Origin: Brachybacterium squillarum M-6-3
GTDB lineage: Bacteria > Actinomycetota > Actinomycetes > Actinomycetales > Dermabacteraceae
Length of the DNA: 64,000 nucleotides
Assembly (NCBI RefSeq): GCF_000225825.1
Contig: NZ_AGBX01000001.1
Coordinates: 62,001-126,000 of the forward strand
Direction of reading: 5' to 3'
The position numbers and the translations under genes are program-made. Shown here piece after piece: positions 16,480-34,011 of the stretch. Position 1 is the stretch's first letter. Each line of letters opens with the position of its first letter. Under the pieces are notes generated by a model. The model was not told where the DNA came from. It worked only from the letters and a program-made list of their open reading frames with translations, and searched no databases.

Positions 16480-18159
16480 TTACACGCGCGCGGGGGCGGT
16501 CCCACCCTCGGCCCGTGCGAGATCGCTCGCAGTGCGGGCCCCCCGCTCGAGCTCGGCCGCGACCTCCTGCACGACCAGGGCGTCGGCCACGTCGTGCACC
16601 CGGTCCCGCAGGATGCGGCGGGCCCGGCGGGCCCGGGCCGCCCCGGCGAGCGCGGCGAGGGTGCCGCCAGCGACGGCCAGCAGGATCCCGGCGCCGACGC
16701 CGAGGGCGACCAGCACCGTGGGCAGCGGGATCGGCACCCACAGCTCCTGGACCATCGGCATCGGCGGCGCGGGCACGCCGAAGAAGCCGAGCACCGCGTT
16801 CAGCGCCAGCCAGCCCAGGCCGACCACGGCCGCGAGCAGGGCGAGCCACTGCAGCAGGTTCCACAGGGGCCACCACCAGGAGGTGTCGCGGCCGCGAAGG
16901 TCGGCCTCGGCGACGGCCTGGTCCAGGCCGTCGGGCAGCTCGGCCTCGCGGGCGCGGGCGGCGCGGCGCACGGCGGCCCGCCAGGGGTCGCTGCCGCCGC
17001 GGGAGGCGGCATCGGCGAAGGTGCGCACGCCGCCGGAGGCGCGGGCGCGGGTGGCGGCGTCGGGCTCGGGCAGGGAGGTGCGCTCCAGGGTGTTGGCCTC
17101 CCGGCCCTGGGCGATGCCGAGGCGGCGCAGCGGGTCGGTCCGCAGGCGGGAGATCCAGCGCAGCGGGGGCCAGCCCACCCGGGTGGCGGCGCGGTGACGG
17201 TAGGAGCCGCCGACGGCGGTGACCACGGGCTCGATGCGGGCGGCGGCCTGCAGGTCCGCGTCGAGGGCGCGGATCGCGGCGGCGGGCACCCGCTCCGGCA
17301 GGTCCGCGGGGTCGGCGGCGGCGCGCAGGCGGCGGGCGGCGGCGGTGACGTCGGCCCGCTGGCGGGAGGCGGCGGCCTCCCGGGTGCGGGCGATGTCCAC
17401 CAGGGCCTCGCGCAGCTCGGCGACGCCCTGGCCGGTCTCGGCGGAGGTGCCGAGCACGGGGGCGGACTCCAGGCCGTCGCGGCGGGCGAGGGCTGCCAGG
17501 GAGTCCAGCACCGGACCGCGCTCGGCCTCCCGGATCCGGTCGAGCTGGTTCAGCACCAGCACGGTGACGGCGTCGTGCCCGGCGAAGGGCCGCACGAAGT
17601 CCTGGTGCAGCACGGCGTCGGCGTACTTCTGGGGGTCGGTGACCCAGACGATCACGTCGACCATGCCGGTCATGTGCTCGGCGAGGGCCCGGTTGGCGGC
17701 CTCGCGGGAGTCGAGGTCGGGCAGGTCCAGCAGCACGATGCCGGGGGCCCCCTCCTCGCGGCGGCGGCGAGGGGCGGCGGCGGTCTCCAGGGCCGCGCCG
17801 GTGCCGTCCAGCAGGTGGCGCTGCTCGACCCCGAGCCAGTCCAGCAGGGGGTCGGCGCCGAGCTCGCCGAGCACCGCGGCGACCGGCTGGGAGGTGGTGG
17901 GCCGGCGCACCGCGGCGCGGGTGACCTCGGTGCCGACCAGGGCGTTGACCAGGGAGGACTTGCCGGAGCCGGTGGCGCCGAAGACGCCGATCACGGTGTG
18001 CTCGGCGGAGAGGGCGCGGCGGCGGTCGATGCGGTCCAGCACGTCCCGGGCGGCGGCGACGTCGACCGCGGGGGCGATGCCGTCCAGCAGCTCGGTCGCC
18101 TCGGCGAGGGCCTCGATCCGGGCGGCCAGGGGCACGGCGGAGCGGCGCCGGGGGCTCAT
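16480..18159 (-). CDS. Membrane-anchored dynamin/Era-like GTPase (second of tandem pair)
   Basis: The 559-residue protein has G1 GATGSGKSS (about residue 60), G2-like PTTSQP, G3 LLDLPDLDS and G4 LNQLDRI, so a complete GTPase site. After a helical middle segment, two membrane helices follow near residues 425-500 (LLQWLALLAAVVGLGWLALN and VLVALGVGAGILLAVAGGTL). A short basic cytosolic tail ends it. The ATG overlaps the stop of the first GTPase by four bases, so the two are made together. A membrane-remodelling or cell-envelope role is inferred from dynamin-like architecture. Confidence 0.8.
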   Translation of the reverse strand: MSPRRRSAVPLAARIEALAEATELLDGIAPAVDVAAARDVLDRIDRRRALSAEHTVIGVFGATGSGKSSLVNALVGTEVTRAAVRRPTTSQPVAAVLGELGADPLLDWLGVEQRHLLDGTGAALETAAAPRRRREEGAPGIVLLDLPDLDSREAANRALAEHMTGMVDVIVWVTDPQKYADAVLHQDFVRPFAGHDAVTVLVLNQLDRIREAERGPVLDSLAALARRDGLESAPVLGTSAETGQGVAELREALVDIARTREAAASRQRADVTAAARRLRAAADPADLPERVPAAAIRALDADLQAAARIEPVVTAVGGSYRHRAATRVGWPPLRWISRLRTDPLRRLGIAQGREANTLERTSLPEPDAATRARASGGVRTFADAASRGGSDPWRAAVRRAARAREAELPDGLDQAVAEADLRGRDTSWWWPLWNLLQWLALLAAVVGLGWLALNAVLGFFGVPAPPMPMVQELWVPIPLPTVLVALGVGAGILLAVAGGTLAALAGAARARRARRILRDRVHDVADALVVQEVAAELERGARTASDLARAEGGTAPARV

Positions 18160-19931
18160 GCCTGCTCCCGGATCCCGGCGGCGAGCCGTTCCAGGGCCTC
18201 GGCGTCGGCGCCGAGGGCGGCGGCGCCCTCGATCCCCTCGAGGGCGTCCAGGCGCGCGGTGAAGGGCTCGAGCCGGGAGTCGACCAGGGCGTCCAGCCGC
18301 GCGGTGAGCTGCTCGCGGGCGATCCGGGCCATCCGCCGCACGGCCTCGTCGCCGAAGATCGTCTCCAGCAGCTTCTGGCCGACGACGGCGGTGCCGGCGC
18401 CGACGCCGACCTCGAGGCCGGTGGGGATGAAGGCGGTGGAGGCGAAGACGACGATCATCAGCGCGACCCCGACGACGTTGACGCCGAGGGAGAGCACCCG
18501 CGCCCTGGTGCGGCGGTCGGCGCCCTCGGTGCGGACGATCTCCAGCACGTCGCCCTGCCAGGCGCGGATGGAGGCGGCGGCCTGCTCGGGGAAGTCCTCG
18601 GGCAGGCGGGAGAGGTCCGCCCCCTCGGCGAGGGCCTTGCCGGCGGGGCTCGCGCGCCAGGCTCCGTCGGCGCGCTCGGCGCCGCGGGCGGACTCGTCGA
18701 CCACGACCTGCACGAGGCCGGTGCCGAGGGCCTGCTCGGCGGCGACGGCGGGGGCGGTGCGGCCGGTGAGGACCATGCCGATGCGGTCGCGGAGGCGGGA
18801 GATCATGCTCTCCACCCCGCGGAAGAAGTCGCCGGTGCCGACGACGTCCTGCCAGCGGGCCAGCACCTCGCCGCGCAGCAGGGTGCCGTCGCCGACGGCG
18901 GCCTCGATGCGCGACCTCGCCTCGGCGAAGGCGTCCTCGGCCTCGCCGCGCAGCCGGGCGACCTCGGTCTGCTGGGCCAGGCCGTGCTCGGCGACGGTGC
19001 GGGCGGAGCCGGCGAGGTCGGCGACGGCCCCGGCGAGGGTGCGGCGGGCGATGCGGGCGCGGGACTCCCCGTCGGCGGCGAGGGAGGCGAGGTGGCCACG
19101 CAGCTCGGCGACCACGGCGGCGGGCAGCAGCGGCTCCTCCCCCATCTCGGTCTCGGGGACCAGCAGCAGGCGCTGCACCTCGATGCCCTCGGCCTCGAGC
19201 ATGGCGCGGAGGTCCGCGCCGAGCTCCTCGGCGACGCCGGGGCGGTCGGGGATCCGGTTCATCACCACGTCGACGGTGACCTCGCGGCGGGCGGCGGTGC
19301 GCAGCACCTCCCAGGGCACGGCGTCGGCGTAGCGGTTGGCGGTGGTGACGAACAGCCAGAGGTCGGCGGCGCGCAGCAGCTGGCGTGCGAGCTCCCGGTT
19401 TCCGGTGGCGACGGAGTCGATGTCGGGGGCGTCCAGCAGGGCCAGGCCGCGGGGGATGCCGTCCTGGGCGCGCAGCTCGAGGCTGGTGGCGGCGGCGTCG
19501 CCCTCCGCGGCGGGCCCGGACACGTCCGCGAGATCGCCCTCCGGGAGCGCGCCGGCGTCGCCGCCGCGCACGCGGGCCAGGCCCGGCAGGATCCGGGTGC
19601 CGGTGAACCAGGCCTCGTCCTCGGGGTGGTGCAGCAGCACGGGCCGGCGCGTGGTGGGACGGATCGCGCCGGAGCGGCTGACGACCTCGCCGACCAGGGC
19701 GTTGACCAGGGTGGACTTGCCGGCGCCGGTGGAGCCGCCGACCACCACCAGCAGCGGGGCGTCCAGGGACGCCAGGCGCGGGGCCACGTGGTCCTCGAGC
19801 TGGGCGAGGGCGGCATCGACGTCGGCGCGGGCCTGCTCGGCCCCGGCGACGGGCAGGGGCAGGCGCAGCTCCCGCAGGTGCTCGGCGAAGTCTGCGAGCA
19901 CCGCGGTGGAGGCGGTCGGGCTGGTGGTCAT
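18156..19931 (-). CDS. Dynamin/Era-like GTPase with membrane segment (first of tandem pair)
   Basis: The 591-residue protein starts at ATG 19931 behind GGAGGAG. The GTPase site has GGSTGAGKST (G1), PTTRRP (G2 region), LLDAPDID (G3) and MNRIPD (G4). A long helical region follows, then one or two hydrophobic segments (VNVVGVALMIVVFASTAFIP and the next Gly-rich stretch) and a C-terminal helical tail. The layout resembles bacterial dynamin-like proteins, which act in pairs in Streptomyces (DynA/DynB) and mycobacteria (Ini proteins). Homology to those exact proteins is not established here. Confidence 0.8.
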   Translation of the reverse strand: MTTSPTASTAVLADFAEHLRELRLPLPVAGAEQARADVDAALAQLEDHVAPRLASLDAPLLVVVGGSTGAGKSTLVNALVGEVVSRSGAIRPTTRRPVLLHHPEDEAWFTGTRILPGLARVRGGDAGALPEGDLADVSGPAAEGDAAATSLELRAQDGIPRGLALLDAPDIDSVATGNRELARQLLRAADLWLFVTTANRYADAVPWEVLRTAARREVTVDVVMNRIPDRPGVAEELGADLRAMLEAEGIEVQRLLLVPETEMGEEPLLPAAVVAELRGHLASLAADGESRARIARRTLAGAVADLAGSARTVAEHGLAQQTEVARLRGEAEDAFAEARSRIEAAVGDGTLLRGEVLARWQDVVGTGDFFRGVESMISRLRDRIGMVLTGRTAPAVAAEQALGTGLVQVVVDESARGAERADGAWRASPAGKALAEGADLSRLPEDFPEQAAASIRAWQGDVLEIVRTEGADRRTRARVLSLGVNVVGVALMIVVFASTAFIPTGLEVGVGAGTAVVGQKLLETIFGDEAVRRMARIAREQLTARLDALVDSRLEPFTARLDALEGIEGAAALGADAEALERLAAGIREQA

Positions 19932-20007
19932 GTCTCCTCCGGGCTCGGTGCGTGCCCCGTCCGTGCGGGGCCCCGCCATTCTGCCTGGTGGAGCATCCAG
20001 CGGCACG

Positions 20008-20023
20008 GTGACTCGAGAGTCAC
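20008..20023. promoter_or_regulatory. 16-bp palindrome in a divergent promoter region
   Basis: GTGACTC-GA-GAGTCAC is a perfect inverted repeat midway between the divergent GTPase operon and the orphan membrane-protein gene. It has the form of a dimeric repressor site. No regulator is encoded next to it. Confidence 0.4.
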
Positions 20024-20075
20024 AATGTGGGCATCCGCGACGAAGACCCCGACGACCGGGGTGGAGAAGGTACTC

Positions 20076-21020
20076 ATGGCCAGCGACCGAGGAACACACG
20101 ACGACCCCGACGATTGGACGCCGGAGCATCGCACGGTCCGCGGGCACGCACGGTGGTTCGTGCCGCTGCTTCTCGCGCCGGTGTTCTACTACGGCTGCGC
20201 CGTGCTCCTCGTCCTGATCCCGTCCGACCGGGACGGGATCGGGGCGCTCGGCTTCTCGCTGCTGACGCTCGTGATCGCGGCCTGCGTGATTCTCGGCCCC
20301 GTGGTGTGTCTGGTCTTCGTCGTCCGGGGCCTCCGACGGATCTGGATCAGCTGGCGGCGGTCGCGAGGGCACTTCTCTCGCAGGGATCGTCAGCAGATCG
20401 CCGAAGCCCGGCAGGGGCACGAGGCGGTGGAGTACGCGATCCGGCTGCGCGAGGATCTGCTCCGGGGCCGTGGCGCTCCCATCCTCCGCCCCGCCGACCT
20501 CATGCCTGCTCACGGGGAGGTCTTCCATCTGCGGGGGGCCTGCCGGTACCAGCGCTTCTACGGGCAGGATGTCACCTACACCACCTCCTCCCCGATGGCC
20601 TACGGACGCCCTCTGTTCGTCGCGGCCGTCATGCTCACCTCGGCGGCCTCGAACTCCGCGGCGAGGTCGAGTGCCGCTGCCGCTGCCCGTGCCCAATGGC
20701 GCGAGCACCAGGTGCTCGACACGATCGTCACGGACCGGCGACTCTTCTGCCGCAGCGCGGCACGGGGCTGGTTGACCTTCGACTACGGGGGCATCACGGC
20801 CTTCCACCCCGACGCGCCCTCGCAGTCGATTGTCCTGGAGTTCGAGCGAGGCAATCCCCTCTACCTCAGCGGACCCATCGTGCCGGCGGCCACGATGATC
20901 ATGGTCGGGCACCGGCTCGGTGCGGAGGGACTGCGCTCGCACGCCTCCGTCCAGCAGCTGCTGGCCTCCCGCGGGCCGGCCGCGGCGCGTCTGAACGCAC
21001 TGGAGCAGGGGAGGTTCTGA
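20076..21020 (+). CDS. Uncharacterised two-helix membrane protein
   Basis: I do not recognise a named family. The 314-residue protein has two N-terminal membrane helices (WFVPLLLAPVFYYGCAVLLV and LLTLVIAACVILGPVVCLVF). A basic stretch and a large soluble domain follow. The latter contains LDTIVTDRRLFCRSAARGWL, then FDYGGITAFHPD and IVLEFERGNPLYLSGPIV, a pattern like a PH-type membrane-associated domain. The ATG at 20076 follows GGAGAAGG by five bases. It lies alone between the GTPases and acuC. Confidence 0.6.
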   Translation: MASDRGTHDDPDDWTPEHRTVRGHARWFVPLLLAPVFYYGCAVLLVLIPSDRDGIGALGFSLLTLVIAACVILGPVVCLVFVVRGLRRIWISWRRSRGHFSRRDRQQIAEARQGHEAVEYAIRLREDLLRGRGAPILRPADLMPAHGEVFHLRGACRYQRFYGQDVTYTTSSPMAYGRPLFVAAVMLTSAASNSAARSSAAAAARAQWREHQVLDTIVTDRRLFCRSAARGWLTFDYGGITAFHPDAPSQSIVLEFERGNPLYLSGPIVPAATMIMVGHRLGAEGLRSHASVQQLLASRGPAAARLNALEQGRF

Positions 21021-21059
21021 GGGTTCCATCGCCGGGACCGCGCGCCGAGGGCGCGGGGA

Positions 21060-25475: not shown

Positions 25476-25691
25476 TCAGCGACCCCAGTGGGGCGGCACG
25501 TCCCCGGCCAGCCGCGCGTCGTTTGACTCGTCGCTGCCCGGCTCGGGGGCGTCCTCCGCCACCCGGTCGGGCAGGATCTTGCCCTCCTCGCGGGGCGCGG
25601 CGGCGGGGCGCTCGGCGGGGGCGTCCCAGGCGATCGGCTTCCCGGTCATCGAGGAGATCACCACCCGCCCGCCGGGCGCCCCGGTGCTCAC
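25476..25691 (-). CDS. Small hypothetical protein coupled to the helicase-like gene
   Basis: A 71-residue protein starting at GTG 25691, which overlaps the stop of the large upstream gene by four bases. It opens with a short hydrophobic strand (RVVISSMTGKPIAWD), continues with an Ala/Glu/Pro-rich linker and ends SNDARLAGDVPPHWGR. The end resembles short conserved actinobacterial proteins I have seen as hypothetical. No function is known. The overlap suggests co-translation with the helicase-like protein. Confidence 0.55.
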   Translation of the reverse strand: MSTGAPGGRVVISSMTGKPIAWDAPAERPAAAPREEGKILPDRVAEDAPEPGSDESNDARLAGDVPPHWGR

Positions 25692-28600
25692 TGGCGCTCC
25701 TGGAAGCGGCGGATCGCGCTGGAGACGGAGACGTCCAGCAGCACGGAGCGCTGCTCGAAGCCGAGGAAGGCCCGCACCTCGGTGGCCAGGTGCTCCTCGA
25801 GGCGGGCGCGACCGTCGGAGCAGACGTACTCGACGACCGCGTCGAAGTCCTCGCTGGAGTAGAAGGACAGCGGGTGGCCGGCGGGCACCTGCGGACGGGG
25901 CAGGCGGTGGCGGATGGTGGCCACGCCCTGCGGGGAGCTGCCGGACTCCTCGGCCTGGACCAGGCGCAGGGCCCGGTCCAGGGAGCGACGGATGCGGGCG
26001 GCCTCGCCGTCGGGGTCGATGAACAGCGCCCACGACCAGACCCGCTCGGTGGCCCAGCCGGCGGCCTCGAGGCGCTCGGCGCGCAGCCGGTCGCGCTCGC
26101 GCTGGCTCGGGGTGGCGACGTAGCGGGAGCCGTCGGTGTCCACGGCCAGCAGCAGGCGGCCGGGCAGGTCGGGATGGCCGAGGGCCAGCTCGATGCGGTC
26201 CTCGGTGAGGCCGAAGTCGCGCTCGACGACCAGGCCGAGGCGCCAGAGCCGGTCGGCGAGGTCGCGCACCAGGGCATCGGTCTCCAGCTCCCGCGGCTGG
26301 TGCGCGGGGGTGGTGGGAGCGGCCGGATCCTCGGTGGAGGTGTCCTCGGACGGGTCCGCGGTGCCGTCCGGGTCCTCGGGAACATCCGAGTCCGCGACGG
26401 CCGGGGTCTCCACGGAAGCGGTCTCCGCGGGCTGCTCCGGACTCCCCGGGTCCCGGGGCTCGGCGGCGGCATCGGCCGTGTCCTCGGCCGACGAGTCCTC
26501 ACCGGTCCCGGGCTCGGTCGGCGCGTCCTGGTCCTCCGTCTCGACCCCTTCGCCCTGCACGGCGTCGTCCTGCACGACGTCGTCCCGCACCGCGTCGACG
26601 GAGCCGGCGTCGTCGTGCTCCTCCTCGGCCTGCCGGGCCTCGGCGGTCTTGCGGGCCAGGGCCGCCTCGATGGCGGCGTCGAGGTCCTGCTCCTCCCGCT
26701 CCGGGGAGACGGGGGCGGCCTCGGCCGGGGGCGCGGGCACCACGGCGGGCACGGCGCCGGTGCGCGGCGGCCGGGTCTCGCGGGCGGGCTCCTCGGCCGG
26801 GGCGGGGCTCTCCCCCGCCGCGCCGGTCAGCGCCGCCACGTGGGAGAGCACGGCGACGTCACGGCCGCCGCGCAGCACCCACAGCAGGGCCCGCAGGTCG
26901 CGGGCGCCGTCGCTGCGCAGCCGGGAGGGGTCCAGGTCCTCCACGTCGATCGCGGAGACCACCAGGGTGCGGCCGCGGGCGCGGGTGACGAGGGTGGCCA
27001 GGGCCTTGCGACCGCCGTCCTCGGAGAGCGGGCCGAAGCGGTGCAGCAGCCGACCGTGGGGGGTCTTGCCGAAGCCGAGGGAGACGATCACGTCGTCCCG
27101 CACGATCCCGGCGGCGTGGGCGGCGGGCACCACGGTGAAGTACTCCCCCGCGGCGGGGTCGAAGAAGCCGCGCAGGGCGGGGATCACGGAGACCGTGTTC
27201 ATCACCCGCTCCATCACCCGGCGGGCGTGCTCCGCGGTGACGGTGAGCACCGCGAGGGAGCGCTCGGGGCGGCTGCGGGCGTGCTCGATCACCAGGTCGG
27301 TCACCCGGCGCAGCTCCGCCTCGGTGGACTCGACGTACTCGGTGGCCTCGGAGACGGGGCCGGTGCCGTGCTCGACGCGCACCAGGCGGTCGTCCTCCGC
27401 GGGCACGGGGCTGGGCACGGCGACGGTCTCCCCGGCCAGGCCGCGGCGGCGGGCGAAGGCGCGCAGGCCGTCGCGGGCGGGCTGCGGGTCGCGGTGCAGC
27501 TCGGCCCAGGGGGCGATGCGCAGCATGTCGTCCAGCAGACTGGGGGCGGCGTCCCCGCCGTACTCGAGGGGGTCGCCGACCACGACGGTCTGGGCGCCGC
27601 GCACGATCGAGGGCAGGGCCGCGGCGGTGGGCAGGCGGCCGCCGTCGGCGACGATCACCACGTCGAAGTGGCGGCCGCGCGGGATCACCTGCGGCACCAG
27701 GTACGGGGAGGCCAGCCAGGTGGGCCGGGCGCGGAACAGGATGTCCTCGTACTTGGCGGCGAGGTCCCGGATGGACACGGTGGAGGAGCGGGCGAGCTCC
27801 CCGATGGCGGCGCGGGAGGTGTCCGGGTAGGCCTTCATCGTGGCCACCCGGGCCTCATCGGCAGCGGCGTGGACCCGCGCGGAGGCGGCGGCGAGGGAGG
27901 CCGCGTCCAGGCGGCGGAAACGCTCGGCGACCTGCGAGAGGGAGGTGCCGTCGTACTGGGAGATGGTGGGCTCCGCGCCCGCGATCAGCTCCAGCACGCT
28001 GCGCCACCAGGCCAGGTCCAGCTCGGAGGCGACCTGCTCGCGGGGCACGCGGCGGGTACGGAGGTCCTCGACCAGCTCTCCGAGGCCGTCGAAGGCCAGG
28101 CGGCGCAGCAGCTCGGTGCGGCGCGGCAGGGTCGCCAGATCCGCACGGTCGCGGTGGAGGGCGTCGAAGCGCTCCTGCAGCACCTCGATGTCGGTGCCGA
28201 GCAGGTCGGCGCCCGCGGGGGTACCGTCCAGCAGCACGGCCAGCTCGTCGAGCAGCTTCTGCGCCTGGGCGACGGCGCCGCGGGCGGTGTCCAGGGTGCC
28301 GGGCACGGAGGGGCTCGCGGTCTCGGAGGCGGCCACGCGACGCCAGTCCTCCCGCACCTGGGCGGCGACGGCGAGCTCCTGGTGCAGGTCCGGGGCGAGG
28401 GCGGCGGGGCGCTGCAGGGCGGCGGCCTCGCGGCGCAGGCGACGGCGCTGGCCCCAGCTCAGGGTCACCCCGTGCTCCTCGCGCCAGCGCTTGTCCCCGG
28501 TCGCGGCGACCAGGGCCGGCAGGTCCGCGGAGAACACGGCGCCCTGGAAGGTCTCCAGCACCACGGCCACCCGGTCCAGCAGGGCGATCCGCTCGGCGAG

Positions 28601-30403
28601 ACGTCGGATGGAGGTGGCGGGCTGCAGGCCCAGGCTCTCGCCGGTGGTGGTGGCGGCTCGGCGCAGGCGCGGCAGGCTCAGCTCGCGCAGCTCCCCGATC
28701 AGGGCCTCGGCGCGCCGGGCCTGGGTGTCGGAGCTGATGGGCGCGCCGTACCAGGCGGTCTCCTCGGGACCGGTGCTGAGCACGCCCAGCTCGGCGGCCT
28801 CCTGCAGTGCCTCGGCGTAGCGCAGGCGGTCCTCGCCGATCATCTGGGTGGCGACCTCGCCGCGCAGCCGCACGGTGGTGCGGGGGGCGGGACGGCGACG
28901 GGTGAGGGCGGCGAGCGCAGAGATCGCGTCGTGGGCGGAGGCGCCCCAGGGCTGCTGCACCCGGTGCATGGCCTCGACGTGGCCGGTGAGGATCTCGCGC
29001 ATCTCCCCCAGCTCGGCCGGGTCGGCGTCCTGGGCGCCGAGGCCGTGGCTGCCGGCGCGTCGGAGGCTGCGCAGCAGCGCGGCGGAGGCGTTGCGCTGCA
29101 GGGAGGGGTCCGGCGAGAGGTCGAAGACGAGCTCCTCGACGCCGCGGCCGCGGGCGATCTCGACCAGCTCGGCGAGGTGGCGGCGGCGCTGGGAGAGCAC
29201 CAGCACGCTCCTGCCGCGGGCGTTGAGCTCCTCGGCGAGGTCGACCACGAGGTCCAGGGTGGGGCTGCCGGGGGCGGCGGCCACGGCGAGGTCCTGCCCG
29301 GCGAGCACCTGGGCCAGCACGGCCTGGTGGTCGGGGTCGACGGCGGCGACGAGCTCCTGCTCGGCGGGCAGCTCGGGGCGGGGCGCCGCGGCGGCGGTGC
29401 GCAGCTCCTCACGGGCGCCGCGGTCCCCGGCCAGGGCGGCGACCAGGTCGCTGCCCGCCCAGTCCTCGCGCTCGGCGGCGAGGTCCTCGGCGACGGAGCC
29501 GGCGGCGTCCATCAGGTTGCCGACGACGAGGGCGTGGGTGATGCGGAAGCCGGGCAGCGGCTCCCCGAGGGAGCGGAAGGCGTCCAGCACCGGGTTCGGG
29601 TCGAAGCCGTGGGTGGAGTCGGTGGTGGCCAGCAGCGCGCGGGCGTCGACGGCGACCCCGGCCTCGCGGAGGGCGCGCAGCAGCACGGGGTTCAGATCGG
29701 CGGTGGCGTCGATCTCGAGGTCGACGTCCTCACGGGCGTTGCCGCGCAGCCGCAGGGTGATGGGGCGGACCAGCACGGGGGCGTGCACGGGGGCGGCGCC
29801 CTCGGCGGGGATCCAGCTGGCCTCGCCGATGCCGAGGTGGCAGGTGGTCAGGCCGACCTCCTCCGCGTGCCGCTCGGCGACCTCGCGGATGGTGCGGGCG
29901 TGGGCGCGGGCGTCGGCGAGGGCGCCGACCTCGCGCACCAGGGAGGAGAGCCGGGTGGGGCCGCGGCCGGCCAGCAGCTGGGCCAGGCCCGAGGGATGGG
30001 AGTGGCTGAGGTCCAGCACCGTGTCGCCCGCGCGCATCTGGGTGAGGAAGGAGGGGGCGGTGCTGCCGCCGGTGATCTGGTGCGCCCAGCGGTCCAGGGC
30101 GTCGGCGACCACGTCCTCGCGGCTGAGGGGCTGGTGGTCGCGCGGCTGGACGGGGAGGTCGTCCTCGTCCTGCTCGGGGGCGATGCCGGCGCCGACCTCG
30201 TCGAGGCGGCGCTGGACGACCACGTCGACGCCGCCGGTGGCGGGCTTCCCGGGCGCGGGGCGGGCCGTCGTCCCGGGGCGCGGCTCGGGCTCGGCGGCGG
30301 GCTGCTCCGGCCCCTCGGAGGCGGTGCTCGCCCCCTCGGCCGGGGTGCTCGAGGAGGGGGCCGTGTCCTCGGAGCGCTTCTTACCGCGCAGGAAACTCCA
30401 CAT
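25688..30403 (-). CDS. Giant SF1-helicase-like protein with degenerate motifs and nuclease-like C-terminus
   Basis: The 1571-residue protein follows the DUF4011/SF1 helicase plan of large restriction- or defence-like proteins. Motif I, however, is AAAPGSPTLDL (about 375) without GK(T/S). The motif II position reads FDVVIVADGGRLP (about 915) instead of DEAS/DEAD. Motif Ia-like SVLVLSQRRRHLAEL and motif VI-like KALATLVTRARGRTLVV remain. An acidic linker (about 1230-1370) leads to a DUF559/MTES_1575-like domain (LGHPDLPGRLLLAVDTDGSR, then ERDRLRAERLEAAGW) in which the usual ECDG is DTDG. ATP hydrolysis by the canonical site looks impossible; a structural or regulatory role is inferred. Confidence 0.7.
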   Translation of the reverse strand: MWSFLRGKKRSEDTAPSSSTPAEGASTASEGPEQPAAEPEPRPGTTARPAPGKPATGGVDVVVQRRLDEVGAGIAPEQDEDDLPVQPRDHQPLSREDVVADALDRWAHQITGGSTAPSFLTQMRAGDTVLDLSHSHPSGLAQLLAGRGPTRLSSLVREVGALADARAHARTIREVAERHAEEVGLTTCHLGIGEASWIPAEGAAPVHAPVLVRPITLRLRGNAREDVDLEIDATADLNPVLLRALREAGVAVDARALLATTDSTHGFDPNPVLDAFRSLGEPLPGFRITHALVVGNLMDAAGSVAEDLAAEREDWAGSDLVAALAGDRGAREELRTAAAAPRPELPAEQELVAAVDPDHQAVLAQVLAGQDLAVAAAPGSPTLDLVVDLAEELNARGRSVLVLSQRRRHLAELVEIARGRGVEELVFDLSPDPSLQRNASAALLRSLRRAGSHGLGAQDADPAELGEMREILTGHVEAMHRVQQPWGASAHDAISALAALTRRRPAPRTTVRLRGEVATQMIGEDRLRYAEALQEAAELGVLSTGPEETAWYGAPISSDTQARRAEALIGELRELSLPRLRRAATTTGESLGLQPATSIRRLAERIALLDRVAVVLETFQGAVFSADLPALVAATGDKRWREEHGVTLSWGQRRRLRREAAALQRPAALAPDLHQELAVAAQVREDWRRVAASETASPSVPGTLDTARGAVAQAQKLLDELAVLLDGTPAGADLLGTDIEVLQERFDALHRDRADLATLPRRTELLRRLAFDGLGELVEDLRTRRVPREQVASELDLAWWRSVLELIAGAEPTISQYDGTSLSQVAERFRRLDAASLAAASARVHAAADEARVATMKAYPDTSRAAIGELARSSTVSIRDLAAKYEDILFRARPTWLASPYLVPQVIPRGRHFDVVIVADGGRLPTAAALPSIVRGAQTVVVGDPLEYGGDAAPSLLDDMLRIAPWAELHRDPQPARDGLRAFARRRGLAGETVAVPSPVPAEDDRLVRVEHGTGPVSEATEYVESTEAELRRVTDLVIEHARSRPERSLAVLTVTAEHARRVMERVMNTVSVIPALRGFFDPAAGEYFTVVPAAHAAGIVRDDVIVSLGFGKTPHGRLLHRFGPLSEDGGRKALATLVTRARGRTLVVSAIDVEDLDPSRLRSDGARDLRALLWVLRGGRDVAVLSHVAALTGAAGESPAPAEEPARETRPPRTGAVPAVVPAPPAEAAPVSPEREEQDLDAAIEAALARKTAEARQAEEEHDDAGSVDAVRDDVVQDDAVQGEGVETEDQDAPTEPGTGEDSSAEDTADAAAEPRDPGSPEQPAETASVETPAVADSDVPEDPDGTADPSEDTSTEDPAAPTTPAHQPRELETDALVRDLADRLWRLGLVVERDFGLTEDRIELALGHPDLPGRLLLAVDTDGSRYVATPSQRERDRLRAERLEAAGWATERVWSWALFIDPDGEAARIRRSLDRALRLVQAEESGSSPQGVATIRHRLPRPQVPAGHPLSFYSSEDFDAVVEYVCSDGRARLEEHLATEVRAFLGFEQRSVLLDVSVSSAIRRFQERQ

Positions 30404-32556: not shown

Positions 32557-34011
32557 TCAGCGCAGCGGTCGCTCGTGCTCCAGCACGGGCACGGCGGCGC
32601 GGGCGGCGGCCACCTCGGCGAGGTCCAGGTCGACCAGCAGCATGCCCTCCTCGCGGCCGAGCTCCTGGCGCACCTGGCCGAGGGGCCCGATCACGGCGCT
32701 GTGGCCGACGCCGCGGGGGGCGCGGCCACGGTGCGCGGGCGGCGGGGCCTGGTCGGCGGCGAGCACGGCGACCGTGGCGTCGAGCGCGCGGGCGCGCAGC
32801 AGCAGGCGCAGCTGCTCGACCTTTCCCTCGCCGTCGCCCCAGGCCAGGGGGAGGAGCACGGCCTGGGCGCCGCGGCGGGCGAGCGCCGTGAACTGGGCGG
32901 GGAAGCGGACGTCGTAGCAGGTCGTGAGGCCCAGACGGGTCCCGTCGAGGTCGATCGTCACCAGGTCCTCGCCGGGGGCGACGGTGTCGGACTCGCGGGC
33001 GCCGAAGGCGTCGTAGAGGTGGATCTTGCGGTACTCGGTGGCGAGGCCGGGCCCGCGCACGACGAGGGTGTTGTGCACCCGGGCCCCGTCGGCAGGGGTG
33101 AAGGAGCCGGCGACCACGGTGATGCCGTGCCGCTGCGCGAGCTCCTCCAGCAGGGCGACCAGCTCGCCGTGATGGCGCTCGGCGGCCTCGCGCAGGTCGT
33201 GGCCGAAGGCGATCAGGCTGGCCTCGGGCAGCACCACCAGCCGGGCGCCGGCCGCGGCGGCCTGCTCGACGGCGCGGCGCACGGTGGCGAGGTTCTCGGG
33301 GACGTGCCCGGTGATACGGACCTGGGCGAGGGCGATGCGCGGCCCGGCGGCCTCGCGGACCGCCTCGACGTCGGCGGGGGTGTCGAGGTCGGTGGCCTCG
33401 CTGCCGCGGGCGGGCAGCCGCCGCAGTTCCCCCTTCCCCAGCGCGCGGTACAGGCGGTGCATGCCGAGGTCGGCCCAGCCGCCGTCGGGGTGGGCGACGG
33501 CGTCCAGGGCGGCGCGCAGGCGCGGCAGGGGCCAGGCGGCGCAGAGGTACTGCAGGTGCCCGTCGGGGGCCTCGAGCGCCACCACCTGCTCCCCCGCGGG
33601 GTCGGCGAGCAGCAGGGCGGCGAGGGTCTCGCTGCGCAGCAGCGGCATGTCCCCGGCGAGGACCAGCACGCGGGCCCGGGGGTCCTCGACCAGCGCGTCC
33701 GGGAGCGCCTCGACCCCGCGGGCCACGGCCGCGAGCGGGCCGGAGCGGGGCGGGTCCTCCCGCACGAAACGGCAGCCGTGTCGCTCGATCAGTTCGACGC
33801 CGTCGGTGCCCTCGGGGCCGACGACGATGCGGTGGGCGGCGGGGGCGACCCGCAGCACGCGGTCCAGGCTGGTGGCGCCGGCGACCTCGAGGCGGGTCTT
33901 GTCGGTGCCGCCGAGCCGGGCGGCGGTGCCGCCCGCGAGGACGATCGCGGCGGTGCGCTGCTCGGAGGCGGCGAGGGCGGAGCGGTCCGGGGGCGGGGCG
34001 TCGGCGGCCAT
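32557..34011 (-). CDS. Fusion of MobA-like nucleotidyltransferase and carbon-nitrogen hydrolase
   Basis: The 484-residue protein joins two enzymes. Residues 1-215 are MobA/NTP-transferase-like, with the nucleotide loop AAIVLAGGTAARLGGTDKTR, the metal Asp in VLVLAGDMPLL and a DLDTPADVE end. Residues 225-484 are a nitrilase-superfamily amidase with Glu (VLPEASLIAF), Lys (YRKIHLYDAFG) and Cys (TTCYDVRFP) all present. The hydrolase half resembles omega-amidase or deaminated glutathione amidase types. Whether the halves act in one pathway, for example molybdenum cofactor nucleotide attachment, is unknown. CAGGAT is six bases before the ATG. Confidence 0.85.
   Translation of the reverse strand: MAADAPPPDRSALAASEQRTAAIVLAGGTAARLGGTDKTRLEVAGATSLDRVLRVAPAAHRIVVGPEGTDGVELIERHGCRFVREDPPRSGPLAAVARGVEALPDALVEDPRARVLVLAGDMPLLRSETLAALLLADPAGEQVVALEAPDGHLQYLCAAWPLPRLRAALDAVAHPDGGWADLGMHRLYRALGKGELRRLPARGSEATDLDTPADVEAVREAAGPRIALAQVRITGHVPENLATVRRAVEQAAAAGARLVVLPEASLIAFGHDLREAAERHHGELVALLEELAQRHGITVVAGSFTPADGARVHNTLVVRGPGLATEYRKIHLYDAFGARESDTVAPGEDLVTIDLDGTRLGLTTCYDVRFPAQFTALARRGAQAVLLPLAWGDGEGKVEQLRLLLRARALDATVAVLAADQAPPPAHRGRAPRGVGHSAVIGPLGQVRQELGREEGMLLVDLDLAEVAAARAAVPVLEHERPLR

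Follow-up and report, generated by a model that had tools for sequence, protein, structure and literature searches.

The 64,000-nucleotide stretch of the Brachybacterium squillarum M-6-3 genome analyzed here (assembly GCF_000225825.1, contig NZ_AGBX01000001.1, positions 62,001 to 126,000; hereafter the window) encodes a 1571-aa protein from a family that is core to its order and related to superfamily 1 (SF1) helicases of the DUF4011 type that end in an MTES_1575 nuclease. Loss of its motor and nuclease motifs is well supported. Parsimony on a quick tree places a single change of the nuclease His at the base of the family and at least eight later changes in the Walker A state, with the frame kept, and a small tail bearing a PPHW motif is coupled or fused to copies both with and without the motor. 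These features suggest that the large protein is probably a core non-catalytic nucleic-acid-binding scaffold that works with the tail subunit, comparable in principle to RecC/AddB and Deinococcus PriA; the mechanism is our inference, and a defense role is possible. An earlier reading of the same DNA from its letters alone (the original prediction) had proposed an SF1-type helicase/nuclease relative without motor motifs and with a coupled small partner, and is supported in part by the motif search and the conserved gene overlap described below.

An intact frame without motor or nuclease motifs

The large gene and its parts, in window coordinates, are as follows.

25688..30403, minus strand: coding sequence of the 1571-aa helicase/nuclease-like protein without catalytic motifs; ATG start, TGA stop, frame intact
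29405..30124, minus strand: N-terminal domain, residues 94-333, at the DUF4011 position; conservation 0.835 in Dermabacteraceae
29246..29278, minus strand: degenerate Walker A, residues 376-386; conservation 0.702 (residues 94-1190: 0.773)
27824..29116, minus strand: long insertion, residues ~430-860, mostly helical in the secondary structure of the model, separating the part with Walker A from the part with motif II
27623..27667, minus strand: motif II position, residues 913-927, with DE replaced by a ADGGRLPTAAALP-type sequence; conservation 0.907
26969..26989, minus strand: motif VI VTRARGR, residues 1139-1145, kept
26279..26836, minus strand: acidic variable linker, residues ~1190-1375; conservation 0.303 over residues 1200-1370
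25979..26263, minus strand: MTES_1575 nuclease-type domain, residues 1381-1475 (Pfam PF18741, 58.6 bits)
26117..26140, minus strand: altered nuclease site DTDG..YV, residues 1422-1429, instead of E.DG..YH
25691..25906, minus strand: C-terminal helical region, residues 1500-1571; conservation 0.916, the highest among the scored stretches

The Walker A position reads AAPGSPTLD; the motif II (DEAD-box) position reads VADGG and the nuclease site DTDG, as the original prediction had it. The protein thus has neither of the two features that mark SF1 helicase function, GK(S/T) in Walker A and DE in motif II. It also departs from the E.DG..YH residues of MTES_1575 nucleases, which we take to be catalytic, as in EDxHD/Vsr-type nucleases. 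The His of the nuclease motif in relatives (ECDGATYH) is Val in the window protein; the E to D change of DTDG alone would be mild, and loss of the His appears to be the stronger sign against nuclease activity. Canonical motifs might have lain elsewhere in the chain, but a pattern search of the whole protein found no [AG]x4GK[ST] P-loop anywhere in its 1571 residues, which rules out a cryptic P-loop. The sole GK(S/T) string, GFGKTPHGR at residue 1112, is not a P-loop because it falls within RecA domain 2, where the intact orthologs L058-L060 have G(R/K)TPHGR.

Conservation was scored in a Dermabacteraceae alignment of the window protein and 24 of 28 loci, excluding L016 (split frame) and the partial L022, L026 and L032. 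The motif II stretch and the C-terminus lay above the mean for residues 94-1190, and Walker A lay below it. In the ADGGRLPTAAALP-type replacement of motif II, the A, D, L, P and T positions were invariant in all 25 aligned copies.

PF18741 (MTES_1575) was the sole Pfam match of the window protein (gathering cut-off 38.2 bits). DUF4011 (PF13195, cut-off 22.2 bits) gave no match in it at E values up to 1, and scored above cut-off in the relatives L058 (26.9 bits), L060 (29.0 bits) and L072 (23.5 bits). Judging by position, the C-terminal region probably corresponds to the DUF3320 of canonical relatives, a domain also found in a paralog in the same genome. A model of residues 88-1190 built from 25 sequences (predicted local distance difference test, pLDDT, 70.6; predicted template modeling score, pTM, 0.49) showed two alpha/beta parts separated by the long helical insertion. 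IGHMBP2, UPF1 and Dna2, which would suit a UPF1-like double RecA fold, were among its matches (probability 0.77-0.99), none of them at an E value of 0.001 or lower. The C-terminal model (residues 1372-1571, pLDDT 80.9) resembled the I-Bth0305I catalytic domain (Foldseek probability 1.00, E 0.067). The models appear to agree with the sequence profiles and would not be strong alone. The only sequence relative of the window protein in the PDB was a weak match to a myosin light chain (E 0.92), which was rejected.

A core gene of the order, and the case for defense

A profile of the N-terminal domain matched 38 of the 39 genomes sampled from the order, covering 28/28 genera, and 58 of 59 genomes of f17, a family within the order; the order-sample matches G012 and G030 were not among the loci analyzed. 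The Dermabacteraceae scan yielded 28 loci from Brachybacterium, Dermabacter, Helcobacillus and metagenome-assembled genomes named only to Actinomycetales. In the class sample 25 of 148 genomes matched, 10 of them in the order (the B. squillarum genome included) and 15 elsewhere; 103 matchless genomes there were unassigned to order, so that order-level absence is not readable from that sample. The phylum sample gave matches in 14/198 genomes, eight of these outside the class, and six of the eight were taken for analysis (L168-L173). Per genome, no more than 18 candidate places were scored in the class search and 13 in the phylum search, which makes their absences weak. A number of the lower-scoring matches from beyond the order are probably relatives of the canonical kind: L111 and L112 fall with the canonical outgroup.

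The neighborhood is conserved as well. In 29 of 44 loci an mscL gene was found no more than 3 kb downstream (single query protein from Actinomyces oris, E 1e-6), beside the Lys-bearing L058, L059, L060 and L101 and Lys-less copies alike. The Dermabacteraceae loci gave no mscL match; there, a ProC match was found downstream in 26 of 28, and the other two sequences end too early. In the window, the neighbors of the large gene include ProC and DeoR-type genes.

These data bear on whether the protein might serve phage defense or genome integrity as a core component: a dead sensor akin to ProA, Hhe and PDC-S37 that signals through its tail partner. Its best profile matches are indeed defense-annotated: PADLOC PDC-S37 (308.9 bits, E 2e-92; the profile shows no curated cut-off), NCBIfam antiphage_ProA (NF058533, 277 bits) and Hhe_antiphage (NF042953, 141.3 bits). 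The B. squillarum genome also encodes a canonical HEPN-DUF4011-helicase-MTES_1575-DUF3320 protein. However, the ProA and Hhe scores are far under the NCBIfam equivalog cut-offs of 1500 and 2000 bits, and the nuclease site is altered. Near-universal presence and conserved neighbors form a pattern unlike that of a mobile defense island. For what is a chromosomal core gene, we consider the defense or sensor role raised in the original prediction possible but unlikely.

The canonical paralog (L093, 2526-9110; contig C8, ~677.0-683.6 kb) has an intact P-loop in a 2195-aa open frame. It matches HEPN_Swt1, DUF4011, AAA_11/12, MTES_1575 and, under the cut-off, DUF3320, and its antiphage_ProA score of 1429 bits is slightly below 1500. 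Elsewhere in the window, 16480-21029 holds two adjoining open reading frames (ORFs) with Dynamin_N matches, and 32557-34011 a single ORF with MobA-like NTP transferase and carbon-nitrogen hydrolase domains.

Repeated change at Walker A after a single change in the nuclease

Motif states were called by pattern on alignments, not by inspection row by row. No P-loop pattern was found in the 27 readable Dermabacteraceae copies, the window protein included. In the order sample, three of 33 aligned rows have GK(S/T) at the site, and the same three keep DE. In f17 the Lys is kept in 36 of 57 readable rows and absent from 21, of which 19 also lack DE. Motor-bearing lineages within the order show GPPGTGKS and DEAS. 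Of the six loci from outside the class (L168-L173), every one retains the motif II DE, and GPPGTGKS stands in the five whose Walker A can be read. The nuclease His is absent from every readable row of the order sample (30/30) and of f17 (55/55). Database names mislead here: L033 (Actinomyces oris NZ_CP116225.1) is annotated 'DNA helicase' despite a Walker A reading APPGSDVA.

Parsimony required at least eight changes of Walker A state on a 109-row tree, and a single clade of the 68 Lys-less rows was rejected (approximately unbiased test, p-AU 1.27e-5). A 110-row tree, with outgroup rows added and long branches removed, likewise gave eight changes and rejected one clade of its 65 Lys-less rows (p-AU 1.96e-5). 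Change counts alone do not separate gain from loss; the outgroup rows carry Lys. Five independent pairs of Walker A states fell on starred branches. In a 41-row mixture-model tree, the window protein sat in a clade of 34 Lys-less rows with full support (Shimodaira-Hasegawa-like approximate likelihood ratio test, SH-aLRT, 100). For the nuclease His, on the other hand, the 110-row tree required one change, and motor-keeping rows of f5 and f17 already lack it. Both large trees were built quickly under LG+G4; some of their forks stay open, and long branches were flagged. The first excluded the partial or split L062, L070, L092, L104, L114, L115, L125 and L130, and the second also excluded L172 and the long-branch L078, L089, L156 and L162. 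The wide alignment held six of the 24 Dermabacteraceae loci; L090 and L091 (same genus) were not included.

Alternatively, the protein could be a non-canonical yet active ATPase or nucleotide binder in which another residue replaces the Lys. In keeping with this, the Pro-Gly of Walker A is invariant in the 25 aligned Dermabacteraceae copies, and motif VI is kept with its Arg in the window protein. Further, f38 (L096-L099, L105-L110) carries Arg in place of the Lys throughout, as PG(T/S)GRTQ, and reads (E/D)DA at motif II; its nucleotide site may be an altered one. Against it, the rest of the Walker A loop varies in Dermabacteraceae and is conserved below average, and DE has gone as well in nearly all Lys-less f17 rows. 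Such an activity seems quite unlikely to us.

A PPHW tail, free or fused

The partner and its landmarks are as follows.

25476..25691, minus strand: coding sequence of the 71-aa partner, PPHW tail included; GTG start at 25691, sharing GTGA with the large gene's stop
25626..25664, minus strand: box VVISSxTGKPIxW, found in Dermabacteraceae partners
25479..25526, minus strand: partner C-terminal tail SNDARLAGDVPPHWGR

The tiny protein that the original prediction had overlapping the stop codon is this 71-aa ORF, and an RTGA-type overlap of start and stop is retained in 25 of 27 Dermabacteraceae loci. An ORF with PPHW lies downstream of the large gene in all 27 named Dermabacteraceae loci examined. 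Conservation of the large gene and its partner in this arrangement excludes chance. No second copy of the partner was found in the B. squillarum genome beyond one 37%-identical stretch (E 7.7).

Beyond the named Dermabacteraceae loci, which were not included in the following counts, tails were sought in 103 loci of the order, f17 and class samples, seven of which are cut off. Among the 96 readable loci, a PPHW, PPHY or PPHF tail stands in a separate short ORF after the large gene in 66, and in 22 it is part of the large protein itself, fused at the C-terminus. These counts are the union of two pattern sets, which disagree on L066, L067, L084, L140 and L157; L067 has a C-terminal extension after the PPHW motif. 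By one pattern set, the tail accompanies Lys-bearing copies (19 separate, 15 fused) and Lys-less copies (42 separate, seven fused). Partners that are fused in some lineages and separate in others commonly point to a shared complex. Neither the fusion in other lineages nor the recurrence of motor loss was open to the original prediction. L168-L173, the six from outside the class, show no tail.

Selection on the large gene

Ratios of nonsynonymous to synonymous substitution rates (dN/dS) from YN00 were 0.050-0.064 in five of 15 pairs (three from Dermabacteraceae, two from f38). The other ten pairs gave no value, presumably because of synonymous saturation, and include both window pairs and all three Lys-bearing pairs, so that the two kinds are compared by uncorrected ratios. 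Uncorrected ratios (pN/pS) for nine pairs ranged from 0.22 to 0.53, below 1 in all. Three window pairs gave 0.48-0.53 and three Lys-bearing pairs at similar distance 0.35-0.45; L005/L015 gave 0.29, and L018/L028 and L099/L109 both gave 0.22. YN00 gave 0.064 and 0.053 for the last two pairs, so that the strength of selection depends on method. Selection is thus purifying where measurable, and the window's own estimate is poor because its pairs are too divergent for correction.

The original prediction also held that selection maintains the gene. Purifying selection in the measured pairs and near-universal retention uphold this; on relaxed selection the picture is mixed, since Lys-less f17 copies evolve faster than Lys-bearing ones (median root-to-tip 1.81 versus 1.28, a comparison whose p-value ignores relatedness) and the window pairs, with uncorrected ratios of 0.48-0.53, lie beyond the reach of correction. 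A decaying gene on its way out is very improbable: the faster Lys-less f17 copies, the window pairs (uncorrected and near synonymous saturation) and the splitting of the large gene across two reading frames in single genomes (L016, L090, L125) would fit decay, but frames are long and intact in most copies, dN/dS is low in the five pairs with a value, all sampled genera retain the gene, and its overlap with the partner is conserved.

A proposed scaffold independent of its motor

We infer that the conserved job of this family does not need ATP. Near-universal retention, repeated motor loss and a partner that is nearly always the same, beside the large gene or fused to it, suggest a job probably done without the motor. 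Many lineages dispense with motor and nuclease but keep the long chain and the tail, which is most simply read as a binding function. The large protein would be a nucleic-acid-binding scaffold or scanner in which the SF1 fold forms the binding cleft, and the rebuilt motif II surface and the DUF3320-like C-terminus provide interfaces. Its PPHW tail would provide docking to a partner in the host, for which DNA-processing or repair machinery is the likeliest candidate, and through the tail the scaffold would hand over to that machinery. In copies with an intact motor, ATP hydrolysis may be accessory to the same job. By sequence and by retention the window protein is a candidate pseudohelicase, predicted to lack ATPase activity.

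Several observations weigh against this proposal. Nucleic-acid binding by the window protein and a binder for the PPHW tail are both predictions. The Lys is kept in 36 of 104 family rows, so that ATP must matter there. In f17, four rows have Lys without DE and two have DE without Lys, and independent-pairs tests of Walker A against other motifs had too few pairs for significance. No tail was found in eight of the 96 readable loci (L065, L080, L095, L100, L106, L107, L108, L112); of these, L112 clusters with the canonical proteins and L095 sits on a branch with rows that lie outside the class. The fold model is of moderate confidence: IGHMBP2, UPF1 and Dna2 match it at E above 0.001, a value that no match reached, and the top matches by E value are dynein, MukB and similar proteins at low probability. 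Finally, the uncorrected pN/pS of the window pairs is somewhat above that of the Lys-bearing pairs, and the Lys-less f17 copies evolve faster.

More speculatively, the family may form a core complex of pseudohelicase and PPHW subunit, near-universal in the order, whose conserved function is independent of the inherited motor. The nuclease site would have been lost first, a new tail subunit recruited, and the ATPase then discarded repeatedly, so that a defense-type helicase-nuclease became a scaffold or scanner of nucleic acids that works without ATP and brings its own docking peptide. We hold this history tentatively, as somewhat less likely than not to be right in full. Orthologs with and without motor motifs in one family amount to a natural experiment on which helicase function selection keeps, and the PPHW tail, whether separate or fused, could serve directly as bait in a search for the partner. 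Pseudohelicases and DUF4011/MTES_1575 helicases are already known kinds. The literature searches made recognized no functional study of this core family, and as far as they go, the repeated loss of the motor from a core gene is undescribed, as is the PPHW partner in its separate and fused forms.

Comparison with known systems

A first comparison is with the antiphage_ProA or MTES_1575-type DUF4011 helicase-nucleases (L093, PDC-S37), which share with the window protein a homologous helicase core, an MTES_1575 domain, and DUF4011-like N-terminal and DUF3320-like C-terminal positions. Unlike them, the window protein has no HEPN match and no catalytic motifs, has a PPHW partner, is core instead of accessory, and scores 277 bits against the 1500 set for antiphage_ProA.

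Hachiman HamAB likewise pairs a helicase with a coupled partner, a likeness by description only; it differs in that published descriptions make HamB an active sensor helicase, with HamA the nuclease effector (PMC10925250, PMC12278908). In Pseudomonas aeruginosa, a core DUF4011 gene and an adjoining conserved small hypothetical gene flank the defense hotspot cDHS1 (PMC10250203). That pair too consists of a large core DUF4011 gene and a small gene, and is a possible parallel, set beside the window pair by description only.

Deinococcus radiodurans PriA has no ATPase or unwinding activity; it binds DNA, and evidence points to an interaction with DnaB (PMC4504706). The likeness, in principle, is that of a helicase ortholog without ATPase, which the window protein is predicted to be, and PriA keeps DNA binding and an interaction. 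PriA belongs to another helicase family and pathway, and is known from biochemistry, whereas the window protein is known from its sequence and belongs to a family with recurrent loss. In AddB and RecC, inactivated helicase domains recognize Chi (PMC4824097). Like the window protein, these have an SF1 fold without most motor motifs, and they use it to bind a single-stranded DNA sequence. They are UvrD-like and sit in a stable complex with an active helicase, unlike the window protein, for which no such partner was identified. Together, PriA and AddB/RecC indicate that helicase folds can serve as binding scaffolds.

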